57,466 bases of DNA, from contig MVQD01000062.1 in NCBI GenBank assembly GCA_002067095.1, positions 1 through 57,466 of the forward strand. Reading direction: 5' to 3'. Below are positions 8,573 through 51,172 of this stretch, one piece after another. The notes under the pieces were generated by a model. That model had not been told where the DNA came from. It did not search any database and saw only the letters and a list, made by a program, of their open reading frames with translations. Both the position numbers and the translations under genes were made by a program. The DNA is from Methanoregulaceae archaeon PtaB.Bin056. Its GTDB lineage: Archaea > Halobacteriota > Methanomicrobia > Methanomicrobiales > Methanospirillaceae. How positions within the stretch are numbered: position 1 is the first letter of the stretch; each line of letters begins with the position of its first letter.

Positions 8573-11500
8573 TTATTCTTCGAACAGCACTTCCTGCTGC
8601 TGTTTCTTCTTCCAGTAATAGTATCCGACCGCCGCCAGTATGAGGATGATGAGTATCAGCGGCACGAGCCAGTACAGAGGGAAACGGGTCCAGTACGGCT
8701 CGGCAGGGGGAATAGTGGTGGGAACCGTCGTGACCGTTGTCTCGATCCCGGTCACCTCGGGAGTCACTGTTGGCGTGGGCGTGATCGTCTCTTCACCTGG
8801 TCCGCTCTCGTATCCTTCGGTCCCGGGAACCGGAGTGGTGGGCACCGTGGTGGGGGGAGTCGTCGTGGTCACGATGTATCCCCCGCCACCGCCACCTCCG
8901 CCGCCGCCTCCCCCGCCACCGCCTGAGGGCGTGAAGGTCACGCTGATGGTATGGTTCATCGCAACATCGGAGAAGGTGTATTCAACGAGCCCGCCCTTGC
9001 TGTCACCATCCACCATGACGTTCTGGACAGCATATCCGGAATCAGGGTGCATGGTGAAGGTGATATCGTTCCCACCGGGGACGCTCACGTTCCCGGAAGG
9101 CAGGATATTTCCGCCGGAAGACGCAGTTGCCTGGATGTAGAAGGTGAGCGACCCTTCGGGCAGGAATACTGCAGAGATGGTGTGGTTCGAGACGACGTTT
9201 GCGAATGTGTAGACCGGGACTGGGGTAACACTCTCACCGTCAACGAGGAGCTGGGCGGTGAAGAACCCGGTGTCGGGAACGACCTCGAAAGAGAGGCTCT
9301 CCATGTAGGGCACTTCACTTGTCCCCGAGGGGATGATAGTCCCGTTCTCGCTCTCCAGTGCGGTGATAGTGAAGTTGACCTTCGCAAACTCGGCAAAGAT
9401 CGAGTGGTCCTCCATCACGTTCACGAACTGGTAGGATGAAGGGGTTCCTGCAGAGACATTATCAACCCGCACATCGGCGATCCTGTATCCCTGGTCAGGG
9501 GCGATCGAGAACAGGGCATTGCCTCCCGTTGCGACGATGACCTGGCCGGACGGGGTTATGGACCCGTGAGGGCCTGCCCCTGCAGTGATCCTGTGGCTCG
9601 TCACGCTGAATGTCGCATGGATTGAACCGTTCGAAGACACGTCCTCGAAGGTATAATTCGTTACCGGGCCGACGGAGATCCCGTTTACCAGGACATCGGC
9701 AATTGCGCAGCCTGCGGATGGAATTATTGTAAAGTGCGCAGACTCACCGGCAGGAACGTTCACGAGTCCAGACGGCACAATCTGTCCATTGGGACCGGCA
9801 GTCGCATTGATCACGTACAGTTCTGTCTCGTTCTCGACAAAAGACGCTTCCACCACGTGGTTGCTCTGGATATCCGAAAGATGCAACCATGTCATAGCTC
9901 CGAGCGCATGGCCGTCAAGATAGAGGTTCTGCACCTTGAACCCGGGGCTGGGAATGATATCGAAGTCCTGGTTGGCACCTGCCGGGACGGTGAAGGTTCC
10001 GTTCGGGATGATGGTGCCGTGTGGACCTGCAGTGGCGGTGATCGTGAACTCGTCCGGGATGGGCGTGAGGTTTGCGTACAGGTTGAGGGTCTGGTCTTTT
10101 GCAGGGTACGAGGTGATCGGCTGGGTCAGGGGATAATAGCCGTCCTTCTCGACAGTGAATGCTGTATAGGGGGTCCCGGTCAGGTACACCATGACGAGGA
10201 GGGTCCCATCCTCGATGAGGCCCTTGTGGTCGTCGTTGAACGAGACCGCGGCACCATCCACGTTGGAATGGACCAGGAAGTAGCCCCTGTCACCTCCTAT
10301 GCTGCCGAGGGCCGTGATGAATTCGGGCCTTGTGTACGTCGAAGAACCATATGCATTCCCGACCGTGAGGCTGACGGTGTACCAACCGGGCAACGTGTAC
10401 ACATGGACAGGGTTTCGCTGGGTTGACGTGCCGCCATCACCGAAATTCCACGACCAGGTCTCGGGGACTCCTGTGGAGCCGTCAGTGAACGCAACCGGCA
10501 GAGGAACAACCCCTGTTGTCTGGTTGGCCACAAAATAGGCGGATGGGGGTCCGGGAAGGGGAGATGATACGCGGATGTAGTCAGCCTTCGTCTCGGTATC
10601 ATGCCCGCTTGCATTGGTCACATACAGGCTCACGGTATACGACCCGTACTCCTGGTAGATGTGCCGGGGGCTCTGCTGGGTCGAAGTTCCGCCGTCGCCG
10701 AAGTTCCAGTGCCATGAAAGGATATCAGTTTCAGAGCAGTCGCAGAATTCCACCTCTATCGGGGCATTTCCCGTCCGGGGACTTGCATAGAAGCAGGCAA
10801 TGGGAGGGTTCACCGGCGGGCATTCGGGGATACAGATGATTTTCGAGATCGAGTCCGTGCCTCCCTTGTTTGACACCGTCAGGGTGACGTTGTATTCACC
10901 AATCCCGGCGTAGGTATGGTTCGGGTGCTGGAAAGTGGAGGTTGCTCCATCGCCGAATTGCCAGAACCATGCAGTGGGGTTACCCGTAGAAGTGTCGGTG
11001 AACCTGACGAACCGGGAGTCCGGGCACTCCGAGATGTAGGTGAAATCCGCGACCGGTGGTTCAGGGCACGGGGGTATGCAGACGATGCATAAAATCTTGG
11101 AGATGGAATCAGATCCCCCTTCATTTGTGACGGTCAGGGTGACCTCATAGCCGCTGACTGCAGGGAAAGTATGACTGGGGTTCTGGAGGGTTGAATTTGT
11201 TCCGTCGCCGAATTGCCAGAACCAGGAAGTGGGGTTATTGAGGGAGGTGTCGGTGAAGTATACGGTGAGCGGATCGGCCGGGTTACTGCAGAACGTAAAA
11301 TTGGCTACAGGGGGATTAACGGGTCCCGGGCAGTAGGGCACGTACACGCTCTTCGTGATGTAATCGGACCCCCCGGAATTGGAGACTGCAAGGGTGACGT
11401 TGTAGGTGCCTGTTGAAGAATACGTGTGGGCCGGGTCCTGCTCGTCGGAGGTGGCCCCATCGCCGAAGGTCCAGAACCACGAGGTGGGGTTATGGAGGGA

Positions 11501-14500
11501 TGTATCGGTGAAATGGACAAATTTGGAGTCCGGGCATTCCGAGACATAGGTGAAATCCGCCACTGGCGGGTCCACCGGCACCGGGCAATCAGGGATGCAG
11601 ATGATCTGGGAGGTGGAGTCGGAGCCTGCGTCGTTTGTGACGGTGAGGGTTACGTTGTATCCCCCTGTCCCGGCATAGGTATGGGTGGGATGCTGTTGTG
11701 AGGAGAACGACCCGTCACCAAAAGACCAGTTCCAGGCGGTGGGGTTATGGAGGGATGTATCGGTGAACCGGACAAATTTGGAGTCCGGGCATTCCGAGAC
11801 ATAGGTGAAGTTGGCGATAGGTGGCTCAGTACAGGGGACAATGCAGATGATCTGGGAGGTGGAGTCAGAGCCTGCGTCGTTTGTGACGGTGAGGGTGACG
11901 TTGTATCCCCCTGTCCCGGCGTAGGTATGGTTGGGATGCTGTTGTGAGGAGAACGACCCGTCACCAAAAGACCAGTTCCAGGCAGTGGGGTTATTGAGGG
12001 ATGTATCGGTGAACCGGACGAACTCGGAGTCCGGGCATTCCGAGACATAGGTGAAGCTGGCGATGGGTGGCTCAGCACAGGGGACGATGCAGATGATCTG
12101 GGAGGTGGAGTCAGAGCCTGCGTCGTTTGTGACGGTGAGGGTGACGTTATATCCCCCTGTCTCGGCGTAGGTGTGGTTGGGATGCTGTTGTGAGGAGAAC
12201 GACCCGTCACCAAAAGACCAGTTCCAGGCAGTGGGGTTATTGAGGGATGTATCGGTGAACCGGACGAACTCGGAGTCTGGGCATTCCGAGACATAGGTGA
12301 AGCTGGCGATGGGTGGATCGACGCACGGGACGATGCAGATGATCTGGGAGGTGGAGTCAGAGCCTGCGTCGTTTGTGACGGTGAGGGTGACGTTATATCC
12401 CCCTGTCTCGGCATAGGTGTGGTTGGGATGCTGTTGTGAGGAGAACGACCCGTCACCAAAAGACCAGTTCCAGGCAGTGGGGTTATTGAGGGATGTATCG
12501 GTGAACCGGACGAACTCGGAGTCCGGGCATTCCGAGACATAGGTGAAGCTGGCGATGGGTGGATCGACGCACGGGACAATGCAGATGATCTGGGAGGTGG
12601 AGTCAGAGCCTGCGTCGTTTGTGACGGTGAGGGTGACGTTGTACCCGCCGGTCCCGGCATAGGTGTGGTTGGGGTGCTGCTGTGGGGAGAACGACCCGTC
12701 ACCGAAGGACCAGTTCCAGGCGGTGGGGTTATTGAGGGATGTATCGGTGAAGCGGACGAATTCGGAGTCCGGGCATTCCGAGACATAGGTGAAATCCGCG
12801 ACAGGGGGAACGAACGGGCAGACGTAAATGTACTCAGACCTGGTGAGGGAGTCAGAGCCTGCGTCGTTTGTGACGGTGAGGGTGACGTTGTAGGTTCCAG
12901 GCTCGGTGTAGGTGTGGTTGGGGTGCTGCTGTAGGGAGAACGACCCGTCACCAAAGGACCAGTTCCAGGCAGTAGGGTCATTGAGAGAGGTATCGGTGAA
13001 CTGGACGAGGAGAGGCGCCGGGCATCCCGAAGTAGGTTCGGCGGAGAAATCCGCGACAGGGGGGACGAACGGGCAGACGTAAATGTACTCAGACCTGGTG
13101 AGGGAGTCAGAGCCTGCGTCGTTTGTGACGGTGAGGGTGACGTTGTAGGTCCCAGGCTCGGTGTAGGTGTGGTTGGGGTGCTGCTGTGGGGAGAACGACC
13201 CGTCACCAAAGGACCAGTTCCAGGCGGTGGGGTCATTGAGAGAGGTATCGGTGAACTGGACGAGGAGAGGCGCCGGGCATCCCGAAGTAGGTTCGGCGGT
13301 GAAGTTTGCCACTGGGACATAAATGGGGCATATCGAGATGTATTCGTACTTCGTGAGAGAATCAGACCCGCACACATTGGTGACCGTGAGAGTGACGTTG
13401 TAGGTCCCAGGCGCGGTGTAGGTGTGGGTGGGGTGCTGGAGAGTGGAAGTGGCACCATCACCGAATTCCCAGAACCAGGTGGTGGGGATTCCTGTAGAAA
13501 GGTCGGTGAACTGGACGGGGAGAGGCGCCGGGCAACCAGACGTTGGTTCGGCAGAGAAGTCTGCGACCGGTATTGCAGGTGATTCTGAATCGTCACACAG
13601 GGTGAAGAGGAAACCTCCCTTGCCCTTGGGCTCGAATGCGACAGGATAGGGGGTGCTCGAAGGGAAGTTGGTGGAGTCCGTAAATCCTGTAATGGATGCA
13701 CACGTACGACTGTCGGTGCAGTCAGTGCAGGTCTTTCGATTGAGTGCAATCCCGCGACCCACATCCTCGCCGTTCCCTCCGAGGAACGTCACATATTCCG
13801 GAGTCGTATCCCAGGGGACGAATTTCACCACAAAGGCATCTGATACATCGACACTATAGGGGGCACCACCGCCGAAGAAACGCTGGTAGGGGTTGATCAA
13901 CGGCAGGTCAGGGGAGAACGTGAACCCTGTCACATACGCGGAACCGCAGTCGTCGACGGCAACACCCATCCCCTCATCGTTGTTGATTCCCCCGATATAG
14001 GTCGAGTATTCAAGCGTTCTTCCGTCAGGCGAGAGCCTGCTGTAGAATGCATCGGCACATCCGCCTGCACCCTGGTAGGGATTTTTCACCGGGAAGACGC
14101 CGAGAATGGTCGCCCCCGTGACGTGGGCGCGACCTCTTGCATCAACGGCGATTGACCTCCCCGAATCGACCTGTCCTCCCCCCAGGTACGTGGAGTAGAC
14201 GAATTCACTGCCATCAGGGCTGACCTTGGTGATGAATGCGTCAGACAACCTGCCCCCACCAAGGGCGCCCTGCATCGCATTGACCACGGGGAAGTCGGTG
14301 GAGTAAGTCTCTCCGGTGACATATGAGTTCCCGTCGTGGTCGACGGCAACTCCGTTCCCTGCATCAATTCCTCTCCCGCCAAGGAATTCAAAGAAGAGTA
14401 TCTGGGAGCCGTCATCCTTCATCTTCAGAATATACGCGTCCTGGCTTCCCCTGTATATGGTCTCGTGGGGTATCCTGATGCCCGGGAAATCGGAAGACAT

Positions 14501-15784
14501 GGTATTGCCCGTGATATATATGTCCCCCCCGCTGTCAAGCGCGATTGCATTCCCTGTATCATTTTCACCACCGCCAAGATATGTCGAGAAGAGGAGAGTA
14601 GAGCCGTCAGGTGAAAGCCTGGAGACAAATGCGTCGTTTTTTCCCGTTAGGAAGTTTTTGATCGCATCTGCCGTGGGAAAATCAGTTGAATTCGTCTGCC
14701 CGGTGATACAGGCGTTGCCTTGCGCATCGACACTGATTCCTCTCCCGACATCATCGCCATTCCCCCCGATGTAGGTCACGAAGAGTGGCGCGGTGCCTTC
14801 AGGATTGATCTTTGCGACGACCACATCAATCCCCTCCCCGCTCATGTCATGCGAGCCCGGCCTCATGGTGTACGGGGCAGGGAATGATTCACCGGTCAGG
14901 TATGCATTTCCTGCATCATCAAGTGCGACCGATCTCCCGTATGCAACCCCGATCCCCCGCAGGTAGAGCCCGTATTTCATCACGGGGTCGATAACAAGGG
15001 GGCGGGTCTGATCATATGGCCCAGTCACAAAGCCCACCCTGCTGCTCCCTTTCAGCACGTACGAGGAACCGACAGGTATCACCTTCCCGTCGATCTCCTG
15101 GTAACATACGGGGGCGGATTCGACAAGTTCCCCCGCGGATGTCTGGATGTGGAGCGATCCATCCTCCACGAGCGTCAGCCCTTCTATCCACGAGTATTCA
15201 AAGATGATATCCTGCGGTGATGCGCCGGGTGCCACGATGAACGTACTTTTTATGCCTTCAGGGGTCCCCTGATACTGCAGATCGATTCCCTCGTAGAGTT
15301 CATCGTACCTGATTCCCCTGTAGGTTGACACGCCAGTGCGCCACCTTGCAGGATCATTCCCGACGAGGAAGTGCACTCTCGCGTCCAGGGGGTCAACGCC
15401 TGTGATCCGGTGAGATGGTTCGGCACCGACAAACCTGTACCCGAACAGGGTCGCGGTGGGAGCGCCCTCCCCCAATGTCACCAGTTTTACGTTCATGCCT
15501 TCCCCGGAAAAGAAGATTGACCCCCCGTCCGAGATAACCATGAACTCGACTTCTTCATCGCTCTGCCCTGCGTTCTCGATGAAATGCAGGGGTATTGCCG
15601 TTGCTGTCTCCTCCAGCGCTCTCTCCCCGCCCTCGATAATGGAGGGGGCGGTACCCGGCAGTCCGTCTCCAGAACCCGCATCACCGATATGCAGGTCAAC
15701 CAGTGGGAAACCGGCTGTGCAGGATACACCTGTAATCAAGAGAGAGACAAGTATGACTAGCCACCTTAGCCTTTCTGTCCTCAT
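8573..15784 (-). CDS. Giant secreted surface protein: SBBP beta-propeller, 13 PKD domains, PEGA, 5 InlB-like repeats, C-terminal membrane anchor
   Basis: A 2403-residue protein. Order: signal peptide (about 1-25); an N-terminal region with the HFIENAGQ motif that usually precedes SBBP repeats; seven SBBP-type repeats (pattern TYLGGxxxDxGxxIAVD...AYVTGxTxSxDFP), consistent with one seven-bladed propeller; 13 PKD domains (WxFGDG core), domains 4-8 nearly identical; one PEGA domain; five repeats of the TATAGPxGxIxPSG type (divergent InlB-like); a run of about 15 glycines; a Thr/Pro-rich stalk; one transmembrane segment and a basic tail. Such proteins sit on the outer surface of methanogens, with roles in adhesion or the cell envelope inferred rather than shown. 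A strong TATA box lies upstream and the gene stands alone. Confidence 0.9.
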   Translation of the reverse strand: MRTERLRWLVILVSLLITGVSCTAGFPLVDLHIGDAGSGDGLPGTAPSIIEGGERALEETATAIPLHFIENAGQSDEEVEFMVISDGGSIFFSGEGMNVKLVTLGEGAPTATLFGYRFVGAEPSHRITGVDPLDARVHFLVGNDPARWRTGVSTYRGIRYDELYEGIDLQYQGTPEGIKSTFIVAPGASPQDIIFEYSWIEGLTLVEDGSLHIQTSAGELVESAPVCYQEIDGKVIPVGSSYVLKGSSRVGFVTGPYDQTRPLVIDPVMKYGLYLRGIGVAYGRSVALDDAGNAYLTGESFPAPYTMRPGSHDMSGEGIDVVVAKINPEGTAPLFVTYIGGNGDDVGRGISVDAQGNACITGQTNSTDFPTADAIKNFLTGKNDAFVSRLSPDGSTLLFSTYLGGGENDTGNAIALDSGGDIYITGNTMSSDFPGIRIPHETIYRGSQDAYILKMKDDGSQILFFEFLGGRGIDAGNGVAVDHDGNSYVTGETYSTDFPVVNAMQGALGGGRLSDAFITKVSPDGSEFVYSTYLGGGQVDSGRSIAVDARGRAHVTGATILGVFPVKNPYQGAGGCADAFYSRLSPDGRTLEYSTYIGGINNDEGMGVAVDDCGSAYVTGFTFSPDLPLINPYQRFFGGGAPYSVDVSDAFVVKFVPWDTTPEYVTFLGGNGEDVGRGIALNRKTCTDCTDSRTCASITGFTDSTNFPSSTPYPVAFEPKGKGGFLFTLCDDSESPAIPVADFSAEPTSGCPAPLPVQFTDLSTGIPTTWFWEFGDGATSTLQHPTHTYTAPGTYNVTLTVTNVCGSDSLTKYEYISICPIYVPVANFTAEPTSGCPAPLLVQFTDTSLNDPTAWNWSFGDGSFSPQQHPNHTYTEPGTYNVTLTVTNDAGSDSLTRSEYIYVCPFVPPVADFSAEPTSGCPAPLLVQFTDTSLNDPTAWNWSFGDGSFSLQQHPNHTYTEPGTYNVTLTVTNDAGSDSLTRSEYIYVCPFVPPVADFTYVSECPDSEFVRFTDTSLNNPTAWNWSFGDGSFSPQQHPNHTYAGTGGYNVTLTVTNDAGSDSTSQIICIVPCVDPPIASFTYVSECPDSEFVRFTDTSLNNPTAWNWSFGDGSFSSQQHPNHTYAETGGYNVTLTVTNDAGSDSTSQIICIVPCVDPPIASFTYVSECPDSEFVRFTDTSLNNPTAWNWSFGDGSFSSQQHPNHTYAETGGYNVTLTVTNDAGSDSTSQIICIVPCAEPPIASFTYVSECPDSEFVRFTDTSLNNPTAWNWSFGDGSFSSQQHPNHTYAGTGGYNVTLTVTNDAGSDSTSQIICIVPCTEPPIANFTYVSECPDSKFVRFTDTSLHNPTAWNWSFGDGSFSSQQHPTHTYAGTGGYNVTLTVTNDAGSDSTSQIICIPDCPVPVDPPVADFTYVSECPDSKFVHFTDTSLHNPTSWFWTFGDGATSDEQDPAHTYSSTGTYNVTLAVSNSGGSDYITKSVYVPYCPGPVNPPVANFTFCSNPADPLTVYFTDTSLNNPTSWFWQFGDGTNSTLQNPSHTFPAVSGYEVTLTVTNEGGSDSISKILCIVCIPPCPEPPVADFTYISECPDSRFVRFTDTSTGNPTAWFWQFGDGATSTFQHPNHTYAGIGEYNVTLTVSNKGGTDSISKIICIPECPPVNPPIACFYASPRTGNAPIEVEFCDCSETDILSWHWNFGDGGTSTQQSPRHIYQEYGSYTVSLYVTNASGHDTETKADYIRVSSPLPGPPSAYFVANQTTGVVPLPVAFTDGSTGVPETWSWNFGDGGTSTQRNPVHVYTLPGWYTVSLTVGNAYGSSTYTRPEFITALGSIGGDRGYFLVHSNVDGAAVSFNDDHKGLIEDGTLLVMVYLTGTPYTAFTVEKDGYYPLTQPITSYPAKDQTLNLYANLTPIPDEFTITATAGPHGTIIPNGTFTVPAGANQDFDIIPSPGFKVQNLYLDGHALGAMTWLHLSDIQSNHVVEASFVENETELYVINATAGPNGQIVPSGLVNVPAGESAHFTIIPSAGCAIADVLVNGISVGPVTNYTFEDVSSNGSIHATFSVTSHRITAGAGPHGSITPSGQVIVATGGNALFSIAPDQGYRIADVRVDNVSAGTPSSYQFVNVMEDHSIFAEFAKVNFTITALESENGTIIPSGTSEVPYMESLSFEVVPDTGFFTAQLLVDGESVTPVPVYTFANVVSNHTISAVFLPEGSLTFYIQATASSGGNILPSGNVSVPGGNDITFTMHPDSGYAVQNVMVDGDSKGGLVEYTFSDVAMNHTISVTFTPSGGGGGGGGGGGGGGGYIVTTTTPPTTVPTTPVPGTEGYESGPGEETITPTPTVTPEVTGIETTVTTVPTTIPPAEPYWTRFPLYWLVPLILIILILAAVGYYYWKKKQQQEVLFEE
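11570..13310 (-). repeat. Tandem PKD-coding DNA repeats, period 246 bp
   Basis: A marker string in each unit (CCCGTCACC on the plus strand) recurs at 11711, 11957, 12203, 12449 and 12695, exactly 246 bp (82 codons) apart, then at 12944 and 13199 in the more distant neighbours. The central units differ at only a few positions, so they arose by recent duplication or are kept alike by gene conversion. Confidence 0.9.
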
Positions 15785-45835: not shown

Positions 45836-47335
45836 TCATTTACCGATCTTTATTCTTCTTGCCATGATGCAGGGACCACCCCGTACCCCCCCGATTGGTG
45901 TCTTCGGTTTTCCGAGCGAGTTCATGCACCGTCCCATCAGCGCCGCACCCCTTGCAAGTCCGTCGTCAACAAAGACCAGGCGGTCATTCGGGTTGTCGAA
46001 GAACTTCCTCTCGGCGATCCCTTCAAGGATATAATCAGGTTTCCTCCCGGAAATAGCTGCCCTCCCGGTGAACCCGATGCTGGAGTTCGGCAATACATGG
46101 CCCTGCTCTGCTGCCACGTCCACGAGGCGCAGCGCCATGCGTGCACATACGCGGTCGATGACTTCATTGACGATGTTCAGGCCGTGCTTCGTGTAGATCT
46201 CCCTGCCGAGTTCCAGCAGTGCAGGGAGGTTGCTCCCATTCTCCCCGGCATCGCAGCCGATGAGTGCCACCCCAGACTCTTTTGCGACGTCTGCGTAGAC
46301 AGGGACCCTGCCGAACCTGCGCCGGTCGGGGGGCACCAGGCGGATATCGATCAACTCGTGGGCGCGATCAACATAGCGTTTTACGACATCACTCTGGCCT
46401 TTCAGGGAGAAATCGCTGATGACGCTCCGGTCTCCGAACACGTCGAGCGCCGTCCCGGTATGGGGATCCACGAGTCCGGTGCCTTTGACGATCGCATCAG
46501 GGATGGCCCCGGCAAGGCCGCAAAAGTTCCCCACGGTCTTTGCAAAGGGGTTCTTCTCATCGGGAGCCACGTCGCTTGTAATTCGCCCATCTAGGGTGGT
46601 CCCGAAGTCGATCGAGATGCAGGGGTTCCGGAAGTCGACGGGGGTCCACTTCGCGCCTTCCTTTATTCCCGCCATCGCGAGCTCCCCCTCCATCTCGTTT
46701 GCCACCATCTCGACCCCAGTGCTCCCCACAGGGGGAATAACCCCTGCAACAGCCCCGATGAAGACCACCTTGTCAGCATAACTGAATGGCTGGAGCTTTT
46801 GGGCCTGGTTGGCTTTCGACATGGGTGGAGTCATCTTCCTTGGAGGCACTCCCGCAAGCAGGCAGCCGTTTGCAAGGGCCAGGACGAACTCCCCCACCTG
46901 GTCAGGGGAGTCCATCGCCGCCACCACACCGGTACTCCTCACGACAAAGTCAAGGTCCTTCTGAATGTCCAGGTGCACATCCCGGTGGCATTCGACCAGT
47001 GTATCCCTCACAAGCTCGGTGACAGATTCCCTTGTCAGCTTTGTCCCGTCGAGAGTCTCGCCAAACACCTCTTCGCCGGGCTTTGGCTTGCGGACGTCCC
47101 TGCTCATCTTGACGGTCTTATGGATGACGTAACTCATCCCGGTCTCGAGGTTCACGCCGGTAAGGATGCACTTCGTGGTGGTATTTCCCATCTCCACAGA
47201 GGCAACAATAAAATATGGTTTTATCTTGAATTCCGGAACATATACGCCAGGACCGTGCGCGATTGAGGGGGGTGGGGGGCTCTCCACGATATGTGGCCTG
47301 GGCTTGAAAAAGCGGTCAAAAAAACGCGCACACAT
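45836..47335 (-). CDS. Methanogenesis marker protein 14 (ASKHA-fold ATPase-like)
   Basis: A 499-residue protein of the methanogen-specific marker 14 family. It has ASKHA (actin/Hsp70-like) phosphate-binding loops: EMGNTTTKC near 48-56 and SIDFGTTLDGR near 244-254, plus a DDGLARGAALMGR stretch near 462. These resemble the reductive activators of corrinoid proteins (RACo/RamA-like ASKHA part), but no ferredoxin domain or iron-sulfur motif is seen. Family function is not established; a role in ATP-driven activation of a methanogenesis enzyme is inference. A strong TATA box sits just 26-37 bases upstream, so the mRNA is leaderless; there is no Shine-Dalgarno. Confidence 0.88.
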   Translation of the reverse strand: MCARFFDRFFKPRPHIVESPPPPSIAHGPGVYVPEFKIKPYFIVASVEMGNTTTKCILTGVNLETGMSYVIHKTVKMSRDVRKPKPGEEVFGETLDGTKLTRESVTELVRDTLVECHRDVHLDIQKDLDFVVRSTGVVAAMDSPDQVGEFVLALANGCLLAGVPPRKMTPPMSKANQAQKLQPFSYADKVVFIGAVAGVIPPVGSTGVEMVANEMEGELAMAGIKEGAKWTPVDFRNPCISIDFGTTLDGRITSDVAPDEKNPFAKTVGNFCGLAGAIPDAIVKGTGLVDPHTGTALDVFGDRSVISDFSLKGQSDVVKRYVDRAHELIDIRLVPPDRRRFGRVPVYADVAKESGVALIGCDAGENGSNLPALLELGREIYTKHGLNIVNEVIDRVCARMALRLVDVAAEQGHVLPNSSIGFTGRAAISGRKPDYILEGIAERKFFDNPNDRLVFVDDGLARGAALMGRCMNSLGKPKTPIGGVRGGPCIMARRIKIGK

Positions 47336-48601: not shown

Positions 48602-48805
48602 ATGGAGATGCGTGACCCCAGGGGGTGGGTCTTTTATTACCTTATCTGTTTTGTTGCACTCCTGTGGGTAGGATTTCTCACTGCCCAGGGGGTCATGATC
48701 TTTGTCAGCCTCTTCCTTACTCTCATAGTGCTTGGGTTTTCTGCCATCCTCTGCGTGATGCTGGTGCTGGAGTTGAAGGAAGAAAAAAAGACGGAAACGC
48801 GATGA
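48602..48805 (+). CDS. 67-residue two-pass membrane protein
   Basis: The frame MEMRDPRGWVFYYLICF... encodes two hydrophobic helices (about 9-30 and 33-56) and a highly charged C-terminal tail (LELKEEKKTETR). It has no recognised family. It is flanked by a second small membrane-protein gene 86 bases downstream in the same orientation. A lone ATG-spaced reading frame with such a clean hydrophobic profile is likely real. ATG 48602 and ATG 48608 are both possible. Confidence 0.65.
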   Translation: MEMRDPRGWVFYYLICFVALLWVGFLTAQGVMIFVSLFLTLIVLGFSAILCVMLVLELKEEKKTETR

Positions 48806-48891
48806 AGTGATGGATCTCTGCAAATATACCCGTGGAATGGAAATGTCATCCTTTATGTAGTCTGAAACACCACCATCCATTGGAGGGGAGC

Positions 48892-49137
48892 ATGAGGACC
48901 AGTTCCTTTACCATCCTGATGATTGTGCTCCTGATGATCATCATTATACTTGCACTCATCGTGATCATCGGCCTCACCGCGATGCTTGGCACGGGGAGCA
49001 CCTCCGGAGAAGAGACCGGCCCCATCATGCAGTTCGTGGCCATTGGTCAGGAACAGATGCTCTCATTCTTCGACTTCCTCCAGCAGTGGTTCAACTACCT
49101 CATTACCCAGATCCAGAAACTCTCTGAAGTGATCTAG
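48892..49137 (+). CDS. 81-residue single-pass membrane protein
   Basis: Starting at ATG 48892 after GGAGGGGAGC, a strong ribosome site, this encodes a very hydrophobic N-terminal helix (FTILMIVLLMIIIILALIVI and on), a short Gly/Ser/Thr linker, and an amphipathic helix rich in F, Q, L and I at the C-terminus. The layout suggests an anchored extracellular or cytoplasmic helix. No family was recognised. The frame opens 20 codons earlier, but the ribosome site decides the start. Confidence 0.72.
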   Translation: MRTSSFTILMIVLLMIIIILALIVIIGLTAMLGTGSTSGEETGPIMQFVAIGQEQMLSFFDFLQQWFNYLITQIQKLSEVI

Positions 49138-49247: not shown

Positions 49248-49526
49248 ATGCGGATGGAACATGTGAAAGGCAGGCGGAGAGGAGAGATCATCCTGTATGC
49301 GCTCTCGACCTGCGGGTGGTGCGCGAAGACAAGAAAACTCCTCGACGATCTTGGGGTCGAGTATTCGTATACTTATGTTGACCGTCTGCCCCCAATCGAG
49401 ATGGAGGACGCGATCCGGGAAGTGGAGAAATACAACCCCAGCGGGTCATTTCCCACCCTGGTGATCGATGGTTCAAGGGCAATTGTCGGCTTCAGGGAAG
49501 CCGAGATCCGTGAGGCGCTGAAATGA
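49248..49526 (+). CDS. Glutaredoxin-like (NrdH-like) thiol-disulfide protein
   Basis: A 92-residue thioredoxin-fold protein with redox motif C22-G-W-C25, cis-Pro in SFPTLVI and the GFREAE segment of glutaredoxin/NrdH proteins. Both cysteines of a dithiol glutaredoxin are present. The stop overlaps the next gene by 4 bases, so it is made with the disulfide reductase that follows. In Methanosarcina barkeri a similar pair passes electrons from ferredoxin to class III ribonucleotide reductase, so the same may hold here, though no reductase gene is in the window. An alternative start is ATG 49254. Confidence 0.88.
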
Positions 49527-50029
49527 CAGCCGAGGGGATCCCTGATGAGACAGTCAGCGTGAGAATGGAGGAGATCCGAAAGGCCGCGGAGGATGGGGGG
49601 TATATCCTGAACCCGGATCCGGATTTTGTCAGATCACTGGTAGCCGGGATATGCGTCAATGAACAGCGCTATGGATATGCTGCCTGCCCCTGCCGCCTTG
49701 CATCGGGAAACAGGGAGGAGGACCTGGATATCATCTGCCCGTGTGACTACCGTGACCCTGACCTGAACGACTTCGGGGCCTGCTACTGCGCGCTGTACGT
49801 ATCGGCAGGAGTTGCAGCAGGAACCGTGCAGGCCCCCTGTGTCCCCGAGCGCCGGCCTGCGCGCCAGCAGAGAAAGAAGGCGAGAGAGAGCAGCGCAACC
49901 ATCGCCGGGAAGGTATCAATGCCTGTCTGGCGGTGCAGGGTATGCGGATACCTCTGCGCACGCGAAAACCCGCCCCTTGTCTGCCCCATTTGCAAGGCTT
50001 CCCAGGACAGGTTTGTCCGTTTCATGTAA
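49523..50029 (+). CDS. Ferredoxin:disulfide reductase (FTR-beta-like) fused to rubredoxin
   Basis: A 168-residue iron-sulfur protein. The first domain is the ferredoxin:thioredoxin reductase catalytic subunit: CPC at 55-57, CPC at 72-74 and CYC at 87-89 (plant enzymes have CHC there), supplying four cluster ligands and a redox-active Cys pair. The C-terminal domain (about 136-168) is rubredoxin-like, [10 protein letters not shown]...CPIC, with four ligands C138, C141, C154 and C157. It reduces protein disulfides with electrons from ferredoxin; the partner glutaredoxin is the upstream overlapping gene. The Tyr for His exchange in CYC is typical of archaeal members rather than a defect. Confidence 0.9.
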
Positions 50030-50138
50030 TGCCTGCGATGAAACTTACGCGCATGCAGGAGCATTGAGGAGGTGGACCTGATGTTTTCGATATCCCATTG
50101 CGCACACTAATGTAGGATACTTCACCAACCTGTATACC

Positions 50139-50486
50139 ATGGCAGAGACCATCCTGATCGAAGTAGTAGGCCTCAAAGACTCGGACTGCTCGCCGTTTCC
50201 ATGCGATATGACAAGGACCTGCGGGCTCTATGACTGCCATCCCACTGGAAAGCTGGTGCCTGCATTCGAGGCATTGAATAAAGAACTCCAGGAGCAGTAC
50301 GGTCCTGCAATCCGGATGAATCTGATATTGATAGACGAGGATATGCCCGGGCATATCAGGGAGATCATCGCAACCCAATATCCCCCGCTTCCATTCATTG
50401 TCATGAACGGTAGGCTGATCCCCATGGGAAGGATCTCGCTGCCGCTGATGCAAAAAGAGATAGAAAAGATACTCGCAATCAGGTGA
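50139..50486 (+). CDS. Cys-rich thioredoxin-fold-like protein, unknown family
   Basis: A 115-residue protein. Near the N-terminus C17-x4-C22-x5-C28-x4-C33 forms a compact four-cysteine cluster that could bind metal or be redox-active; the rest (LILIDEDMPGHIREII... LPFIVMNGRLIPMGRISLPLM) has the beta-strand/cis-Pro look of a thioredoxin fold. No family name can be given. It comes 109 bases after the disulfide reductase, possibly part of the same redox group. The 3' end overlaps the convergent carbonic anhydrase gene by 8 bases. Confidence 0.75.
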   Translation: MAETILIEVVGLKDSDCSPFPCDMTRTCGLYDCHPTGKLVPAFEALNKELQEQYGPAIRMNLILIDEDMPGHIREIIATQYPPLPFIVMNGRLIPMGRISLPLMQKEIEKILAIR

Positions 50487-51060
50487 CCCTGGAGAGCTCC
50501 CCGTTCTCGAGGTCGTAATAAAGCCCGTGCACCTGGATTTTCTTCTCTTTTAATGCCGTTTTCACGATTGGGTACTGCATCAGGTGCTCGATCTGGAGCC
50601 TGACATTCTCTTTTTCAATCATCCTGGAACGTTCCCGTGCGTCCCTGGGGTTCTTTGGGGCAGGTATCTTTGCGTCGACGCGTTGCTTCGCTTCTATCGC
50701 ATAGTTCAGCCACAACGGGATGTACACGTCGTCTGATTCCTTGTCGAGTGCTTTTATCGCACCGCAGTCCGAATGTCCGCAGATGACGACATCCTTCACC
50801 TTCAGGTGCCTGATGGCATATTCGAGCACGGTCGCGAAGTTCCAGTCCTGGAGTGGTACGATATTCCCAATATTCCTGTGCATAAAGAGTGTCCCGGGCA
50901 TCGTCTGCGTGATATGCCCGGTCTGAAGCCTCGAATCGGAACACCCTATCCAGAGGACTTTAGGGCTCTGACCCTTGGTAAGCTCCTCGTGGTGTGCCTT
51001 GTTCTCCTTAAAGAAACCTTCCCTGAACTTTCTGTTGCCTTCGAGCAGTTCGTCGATCAT
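50479..51060 (-). CDS. Beta-class carbonic anhydrase
   Basis: A 193-residue enzyme interconverting carbon dioxide and bicarbonate. The beta-class zinc site is complete: Cys40 with Asp42 and Arg44 (CSDSR) and His96 and Cys99 (HSDCGA). Length is typical. The ATG at 51060 follows GGAGGTG at about 8 bases; the longer frame begins 13 codons earlier without such a site. In methanogens it may supply bicarbonate or carbon dioxide for the reactions of carbon fixation. Confidence 0.93.
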   Translation of the reverse strand: MIDELLEGNRKFREGFFKENKAHHEELTKGQSPKVLWIGCSDSRLQTGHITQTMPGTLFMHRNIGNIVPLQDWNFATVLEYAIRHLKVKDVVICGHSDCGAIKALDKESDDVYIPLWLNYAIEAKQRVDAKIPAPKNPRDARERSRMIEKENVRLQIEHLMQYPIVKTALKEKKIQVHGLYYDLENGELSRVT

Positions 51061-51172
51061 GATAAATACACCTCCGGTCTGGGCATGTCGAACCTGCACT
51101 CACCTGGATGCAGGTGTCGGTAATTGGCTTATAGAATCGCATGAGAATTAAAGATTGATATTTTGCTCTGCA

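Follow-up and report, generated by a model that had tools for sequence, protein, structure and literature searches.

The third of three consecutive genes in the window, the 57,466-nucleotide stretch of DNA analyzed here, encodes a 115-aa protein that, within the sampled phylum, is particular to the Methanomicrobiales and carries four invariant cysteines in a loop of a predicted thioredoxin fold. The two genes before it, for a glutaredoxin-like protein (Grx) and for a fusion of a ferredoxin:disulfide reductase (FDR) catalytic domain with a rubredoxin-like domain, are an ordinary, ancient pair; the third protein is the finding, and it is probably an uncharacterized redox part of these methanogens.

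Results

Gene organization in the window

The window makes up contig C62 in a genome assembly of 2.24 Mb (106 contigs, 95.65% complete), whose nearest named relatives are Methanolinea MAGs, a genus placed in Methanomicrobiales by taxonomy. An earlier note on this DNA had described overlapping Grx and FTR-rubredoxin genes followed by a protein with the pattern C-x4-C-x5-C-x4-C, and all of these are present as it said. The Grx gene (49248–49526, plus strand) encodes 92 aa with a CGWC active-site motif and passes PF00462 (E 7.8e-12; 45.7 bits against a cut-off of 22.9). The fusion gene (49523–50029, plus strand; 168 aa; PF02943 E 4.4e-20, RUBY_RBDX E 6.5e-14) starts inside the Grx gene, with an overlap of 4 bases. 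The third gene (50139–50486, plus strand) begins 109 bases after the FDR stop codon, and a beta-class carbonic anhydrase gene (50479–51099, minus strand; PF00484 E 3.1e-50) runs towards it and shares 8 bases with its end, stop codons included.

Just 5' of the Grx gene lie two small ORFs with hydrophobic stretches (48602–48805 and 48832–49137), which gave no significant Pfam or NCBIfam match, and the gene for a methanogenesis marker 14 protein (45836–47335; TIGR03285, 627.6 bits, cut-off 274; DUF2114) is found a few genes upstream of Grx. Elsewhere in the window, a 2403-aa ORF (8573–15784), in which DUF7948, SBBP beta-propeller repeats and 13 PKD matches were detected, is probably the gene of a large surface protein.

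The 40 bases directly 5' of the third gene (50099–50138, plus strand) are 88–90% identical to those of the three closest relatives, compared with 33–61% for the preceding 67 bases, suggesting that the gene may have its own promoter or 5' leader. Since the conserved element fits such a promoter or leader, co-transcription with the Grx and FDR genes is not assured even in the window's family. Between the FDR gene and the third gene, a GGAGGTG stretch that resembles a ribosome-binding site precedes a 9-codon ORF (50081–50110; MFSISHCAH), whose start codon is absent from the nearest relative.

The Grx and FDR-rubredoxin genes are of known kinds

In a sequence search of the PDB, the fusion aligned with the Methanosarcina acetivorans FDR (4tpu) over residues 13–168 (E 2.4e-59), and its three CxC motifs (CPC, CPC and CYC) fell on those of 4tpu gap-free and with the same spacing. 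The two proteins share their domain order, an FTR-type catalytic domain and then a C-terminal rubredoxin-like domain, with no notable sequence difference. The fusion thus has the domains and CxC motifs of a Methanosarcina-type FDR, and its [4Fe-4S] cluster and active-site disulfide are predicted from these motifs. What sets the window's pair apart is the third gene behind it, which genomes of the M. acetivorans type lack (0 of 309 outside the class). The Grx gene stands immediately 5' of the fusion at all 25 fusion loci surveyed in the order, that of the window among them, and at each of 10 loci outside the class; at a further locus outside the class (L171), the catalytic part alone was matched and no Grx adjoined it. 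Because the pairing also occurs outside the class, the pair is older than the order.

The FDR of M. barkeri reportedly supplies the class III ribonucleotide reductase, and work on the M. acetivorans ferredoxin:disulfide reductase is said to include that of Kumar in 2015, Prakash in 2018 and Wei in 2015. A passage in PMC6262447 describes the M. acetivorans FDR as reducing a thioredoxin homologue. The earlier note had named, as known from Methanosarcina, a glutaredoxin-like NrdH and an FDR that supply this reductase. The identities of Grx and FDR, the conserved pairing and the presence of the reductase NrdD in the window's genome (PF13597 E 3.6e-119) agree with that parallel; the NrdH label does not, with 20.1 bits for Grx against the curated NrdH model TIGR02194 (cut-off 85.75), and nrdD lies on another contig (C37). 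The best NCBIfam match of Grx was TIGR02196 (YruB-type), at 40 bits and under its cut-off of 88.55. As NrdD is encoded in the genome, it is possible that Grx and FDR feed it in this organism. The NrdD match itself is split within one 1202-aa frame (L207/L209; genome G000, contig C37, 14681–17818, minus strand): profile positions 1–59 and 53–510 lie about 1.4 kb apart on C37, a spacing that an in-frame insertion, for example an intein, would produce. The end of the profile, positions 504–562, matches on contig C52.

The third protein is conserved across one order

The third protein of the window had no Pfam or NCBIfam match, and a search of PDB sequences with it returned chance-level matches, none past the cut-off. 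The third gene is nevertheless genuine and not a chance ORF, since relatives turned up in 92 of 100 genomes of the window's family and, for the class as a whole, in 214 of 232, with all four cysteines retained in the 48 members that were aligned. The profile used for the distribution, built from 24 rows, found the protein in 131 of the 135 good-quality genomes of the class and in all 40 genera. When 392 genomes were drawn across the phylum, 82 contained it, all of the same order, and the same profile found it in none of the 309 genomes outside the class (what remains of the 392 once the 82 that matched and G073, a member of the order, are set aside). A pattern scan of genome contigs with the third protein alone, which reaches close relatives only, gave 7 loci, all behind a Grx-FDR pair; 29 stretches of viral contigs fitted a pattern, none being a relative of the third protein. 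The set of 37 closest-relative loci holds some genomes twice and is a biased sample.

The earlier note had also proposed the third protein as a member or target of the Grx-FDR pathway, with co-occurrence as a check. The FDR fusion was detected in 119 of the 135 good-quality genomes and in 35 of the 40 genera, compared with 131 genomes for the third protein. Among the four good-quality genomes in which the third protein was missing, three (G107, G169 and G215) contain the fusion and one (G073) has neither; three of these four are multi-contig drafts. Conversely, the genomes G123, G126 and G142, all of one genus, have no fusion and keep the third protein, with a thioredoxin gene adjoining. We therefore rejected the view that the third protein requires the FDR fusion: in the tested genomes of this genus it is kept without the fusion, and it is not an obligate FDR partner.

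A second copy of the third gene (L196; genome G089, contig C225) adjoins a second gene for carbonic anhydrase; the contamination of this genome is estimated at 4%. The first cysteine pair is absent from its open frame, which appears broken, so that this copy is no test of whether the cysteine pairs are independent.

Redox neighbors of the third gene differ by family

Families f1–f6 and genera g1–g40 are labels, f1 being the window's family. Among the matches listed, 91 f1 genomes have coordinates for both genes, and in 76 of them the third gene is preceded, on its own strand and at no more than 400 bp, by the FDR fusion (median gap 92 bp). The fusion is 0.4–5 kb away in another 12, bringing the total within 5 kb to 88 of 91, and on another contig in 3. 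In a set of 11 f1 loci and 27 f2–f6 loci, the Grx-FDR pair was close at 10 of the 11, with FDR 3.4 kb off at the eleventh, whereas it adjoined the third gene at none of the 27. An order-wide operon of the three genes was accordingly rejected, the linkage being confined to f1. In f1 the third protein co-occurs with the pair and is linked to it, in line with the proposal, but it is not tied to FDR across the order.

Other redox genes were found upstream in other families, in a neighbor survey that covered 58 loci (L080 and L100, which are 10-base placeholders, were dropped). An FMN reductase gene (PF03358) occupies this position at 10 of 11 f4 loci and 9 of 9 f5 loci (19/20). In f3, where thioredoxin was found at 12 of 14 loci, all 8 loci of one genus have it upstream in the same orientation as the third gene, and the other genus has a divergent thioredoxin gene at 4 of 6 loci and no redox neighbor at the remaining 2. 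No homologue of thioredoxin, Grx, FDR or FMN reductase was found beside the third gene in f2 (0/4) or f6 (0/9). The window's genome has 4 PF00085 and 13 PF03358 matches (17 in 2.24 Mb), so few that redox neighbors would not often be expected by chance. On a tree of the 58 third proteins (115 columns, many forks unresolved), the neighbor labels need 6 changes; the states are clustered by lineage and so represent about three to four independent events. The neighbor categories were chosen after the loci had been seen and the loci are non-independent, and hence no P value is given.

The genes flanking this variable position are more constant. Upstream, a divergent carA gene is present at 33 of 58 loci; on the other side, 31 of 58 loci have a convergent carbonic anhydrase gene within 60 bases. 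Each of the two occurs in five of the six families, and the ends of the carbonic anhydrase gene and the third gene often overlap by a few bases. The recurrence of these flanks indicates a stable slot for the third gene, with variable content upstream of it.

Four invariant cysteines lie in a loop of a predicted thioredoxin fold

The cysteines of the third protein form the motif C17-x4-C22-x5-C28-x4-C33, within the loop CSPFPCDMTRTCGLYDC (residues 17–33; 50187–50237, plus strand) between strand 1 and helix 1. Across 48 sequences from all six families, twelve alignment columns show no variation, including C17, P19, F20, C22, R26, C28, L30, C33 and P85. AlphaFold2 with the 48-row alignment predicted the whole chain confidently (mean pLDDT 91.8, pTM 0.84); with only 24 close relatives, the cysteine loop was left unresolved. 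The elements of the model, strand 5–11, helix 39–57, strand 58–64, helix 71–80, strands 86–89 and 92–94 and helix 101–114, follow the thioredoxin order, and residues 12–38 form a long cysteine loop between strand 1 and helix 1, with no helix or strand of at least 3 residues and block means of 83–92. The thioredoxin-like tail that had been noticed from the sequence gains support from this confident model and from the structure comparison below, and turns out to be too narrow a description: the model makes the whole protein one thioredoxin-like domain, including strand 5–11 before the cysteine loop. We infer from the model that P85, just before strand 86–89, stands where thioredoxins have their cis-proline.

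For both AlphaFold2 models, the first match in Foldseek and in VIA-align was 1xg8. With the 48-row model it gave a Foldseek E of 1.2e-4, the only Foldseek match below 0.001, and a VIA Z of 9.4 (rmsd 2.8 over 100 residues); its lead over the thioredoxins in VIA-align was less than 1 Z unit, and the two are therefore tied. 1xg8 is a Staphylococcus aureus protein assigned to DUF1462 in a section of PMC3091736, which also classes ArsD and DUF1462 in the thioredoxin-like clan.

In addition to this best structure match, sequence comparisons with DUF1462/YuzD (PF07315) gave a weak Pfam match in 2 of the 48 members (best E 0.037, under the gathering score of 25 bits) and a profile match to 1xg8 over residues 33–112 (E 0.98), which together suggest a distant tie. 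In the window's genome, PF07315 at E ≤ 10 matched another place only and not the third gene, and the third-protein family differs from DUF1462 by its four cysteines in a longer loop. With thioredoxin and glutaredoxin, the protein shares the predicted fold, cysteines just before helix 1 and the invariant proline before strand 86–89, but it has C-x4-C-x5-C-x4-C in place of CxxC, and neither PF00085 nor PF00462 matched it or its 48-member set. ArsD and the ArsD-related VcpD (NF047871) likewise have cysteines in the first loop; NF047871 matched 7 of the 48 members weakly (best E 0.0071), scoring 12.2 and 12.5 bits in two of them against a cut-off of 90, and the invariant motif of the third protein has no vicinal Cys-Cys pair. 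The third protein falls short of the DUF1462 and NF047871 thresholds and lacks the CxxC and the family match expected of a PF00085 thioredoxin. We take it for an apparently undescribed variant of the thioredoxin fold, specific to this lineage. A few searches, of open-licence papers only, found no literature on it, the motifs CGPFPC and CSPFPC included.

Discussion

We favor, at a probability of roughly 0.45, a reading in which the third protein is peculiar to Methanomicrobiales, works in the cytosol as a redox protein of thioredoxin fold and exchanges thiol/disulfide electrons with the low-potential dithiol network of the cell. The 17-residue loop with its four invariant cysteines would stand in for the usual CxxC. 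In the window's family, electrons would pass from reduced ferredoxin through the [4Fe-4S] cluster of FDR to Grx, which would exchange them with the third protein; in other families the exchange partner would be the thioredoxin or FMN reductase encoded beside the third gene. The redox activity of the cysteines, the passage of electrons between the neighbors and the direction of flow are all things that we infer. A thiol or electron-transfer role is the best reading because the protein combines a predicted thioredoxin fold with cysteines in the active-site loop and an invariant proline before strand 86–89, and because redox genes recur beside its gene. The structure comparison points the same way, with thioredoxins and 1xg8 as top matches and the loop placed before helix 1, where thioredoxins carry CxxC. 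Against it stand the missing redox neighbors in f2, f6 and part of f3, the clustering of neighbors by lineage, the absence of the fusion from genomes that keep the protein, the lack of CxxC and of any Pfam redox match, the better anchored carbonic anhydrase neighbor (31/58) and the hint of an own promoter in the 40-base element.

The same loop could instead bind a single metal site on a thioredoxin scaffold, be it zinc, an Fe-S cluster or iron held as in rubredoxin, making the protein an electron carrier or a metal or cluster handler and not a dithiol exchanger. Metal-stabilized loops are often ordered without regular secondary structure, and residues 12–38 are well predicted (83–92) with neither a helix nor a longer strand; moreover, the four cysteines are kept as a set in 48 of 48 members with no pair lost, the adjoining genes encode Fe-S and rubredoxin domains, and 7 of the 48 members show the weak ArsD-related similarity. 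A metal site fits the ordered four-cysteine loop nearly as well as dithiol exchange does. We know of no metal motif that C-x4-C-x5-C-x4-C fits, a search of PDB sequences with the loop alone was empty up to E 10, and the ArsD-type scores, in two of those members, are far under the cut-off; all in all we regard a metal center as possible, and as somewhat less likely than dithiol exchange. In a more far-reaching reading, an undescribed protein of thioredoxin fold would define the order, its four cysteines would form one redox-active metal or Fe-S center, and it would connect ferredoxin-linked reductases with dithiol proteins in Methanomicrobiales as a hub of low potential, its immediate electron partner (Grx-FDR, thioredoxin or a flavoprotein) being swapped by family; this strikes us as decidedly improbable.

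Two further explanations turn on the neighbors. The third protein might serve some conserved function proper to itself at an old locus formed with carA and carbonic anhydrase, the redox genes beside it having been inserted with no functional connection. The spread of both flanking genes over five of the six families, the persistence of the third gene without the FDR fusion and its separation from the pair in f2–f6 (0/27) agree with this, but three kinds of redox gene fill the upstream slot by family although such genes are rare, the linkage in f1 is nearly complete (88/91), and invariant cysteines in a thioredoxin fold point to redox or metal chemistry regardless of neighbors, and we regard it as unlikely. 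That the protein is a substrate regulated by Grx and FDR, and not a carrier, would suit its position next to a reductase gene in f1 and its possession of cysteines that Grx could reduce; it is itself of thioredoxin fold, though, its cysteines stand where an active site would be, and it is kept in genomes that have no fusion, which makes this very improbable. Of the membership proposed at the outset, the linkage to Grx and FDR in f1 stands, but the 27 unlinked loci of the other families, the genus whose tested genomes lack a fusion (G123, G126 and G142) and the excess of genomes with the third protein (131 versus 119 of 135) do not support a general tie, and the protein is better described as belonging to a redox pathway than as a member, or a target, of that of Grx and FDR.

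According to PMC2686161, 62 signature clusters occur in Methanomicrobiales alone and 26 of these are hypothetical; the third protein may be among them. None of the models in the family libraries that we searched is one that it passes. Its neighbors, FDR, Grx, thioredoxin and FMN reductase, provide concrete candidate electron partners, and a protein with four invariant cysteines that occurs in 131 of 135 good-quality genomes of the order and in 0 of 309 elsewhere in the phylum likely matters to the redox physiology of the order.
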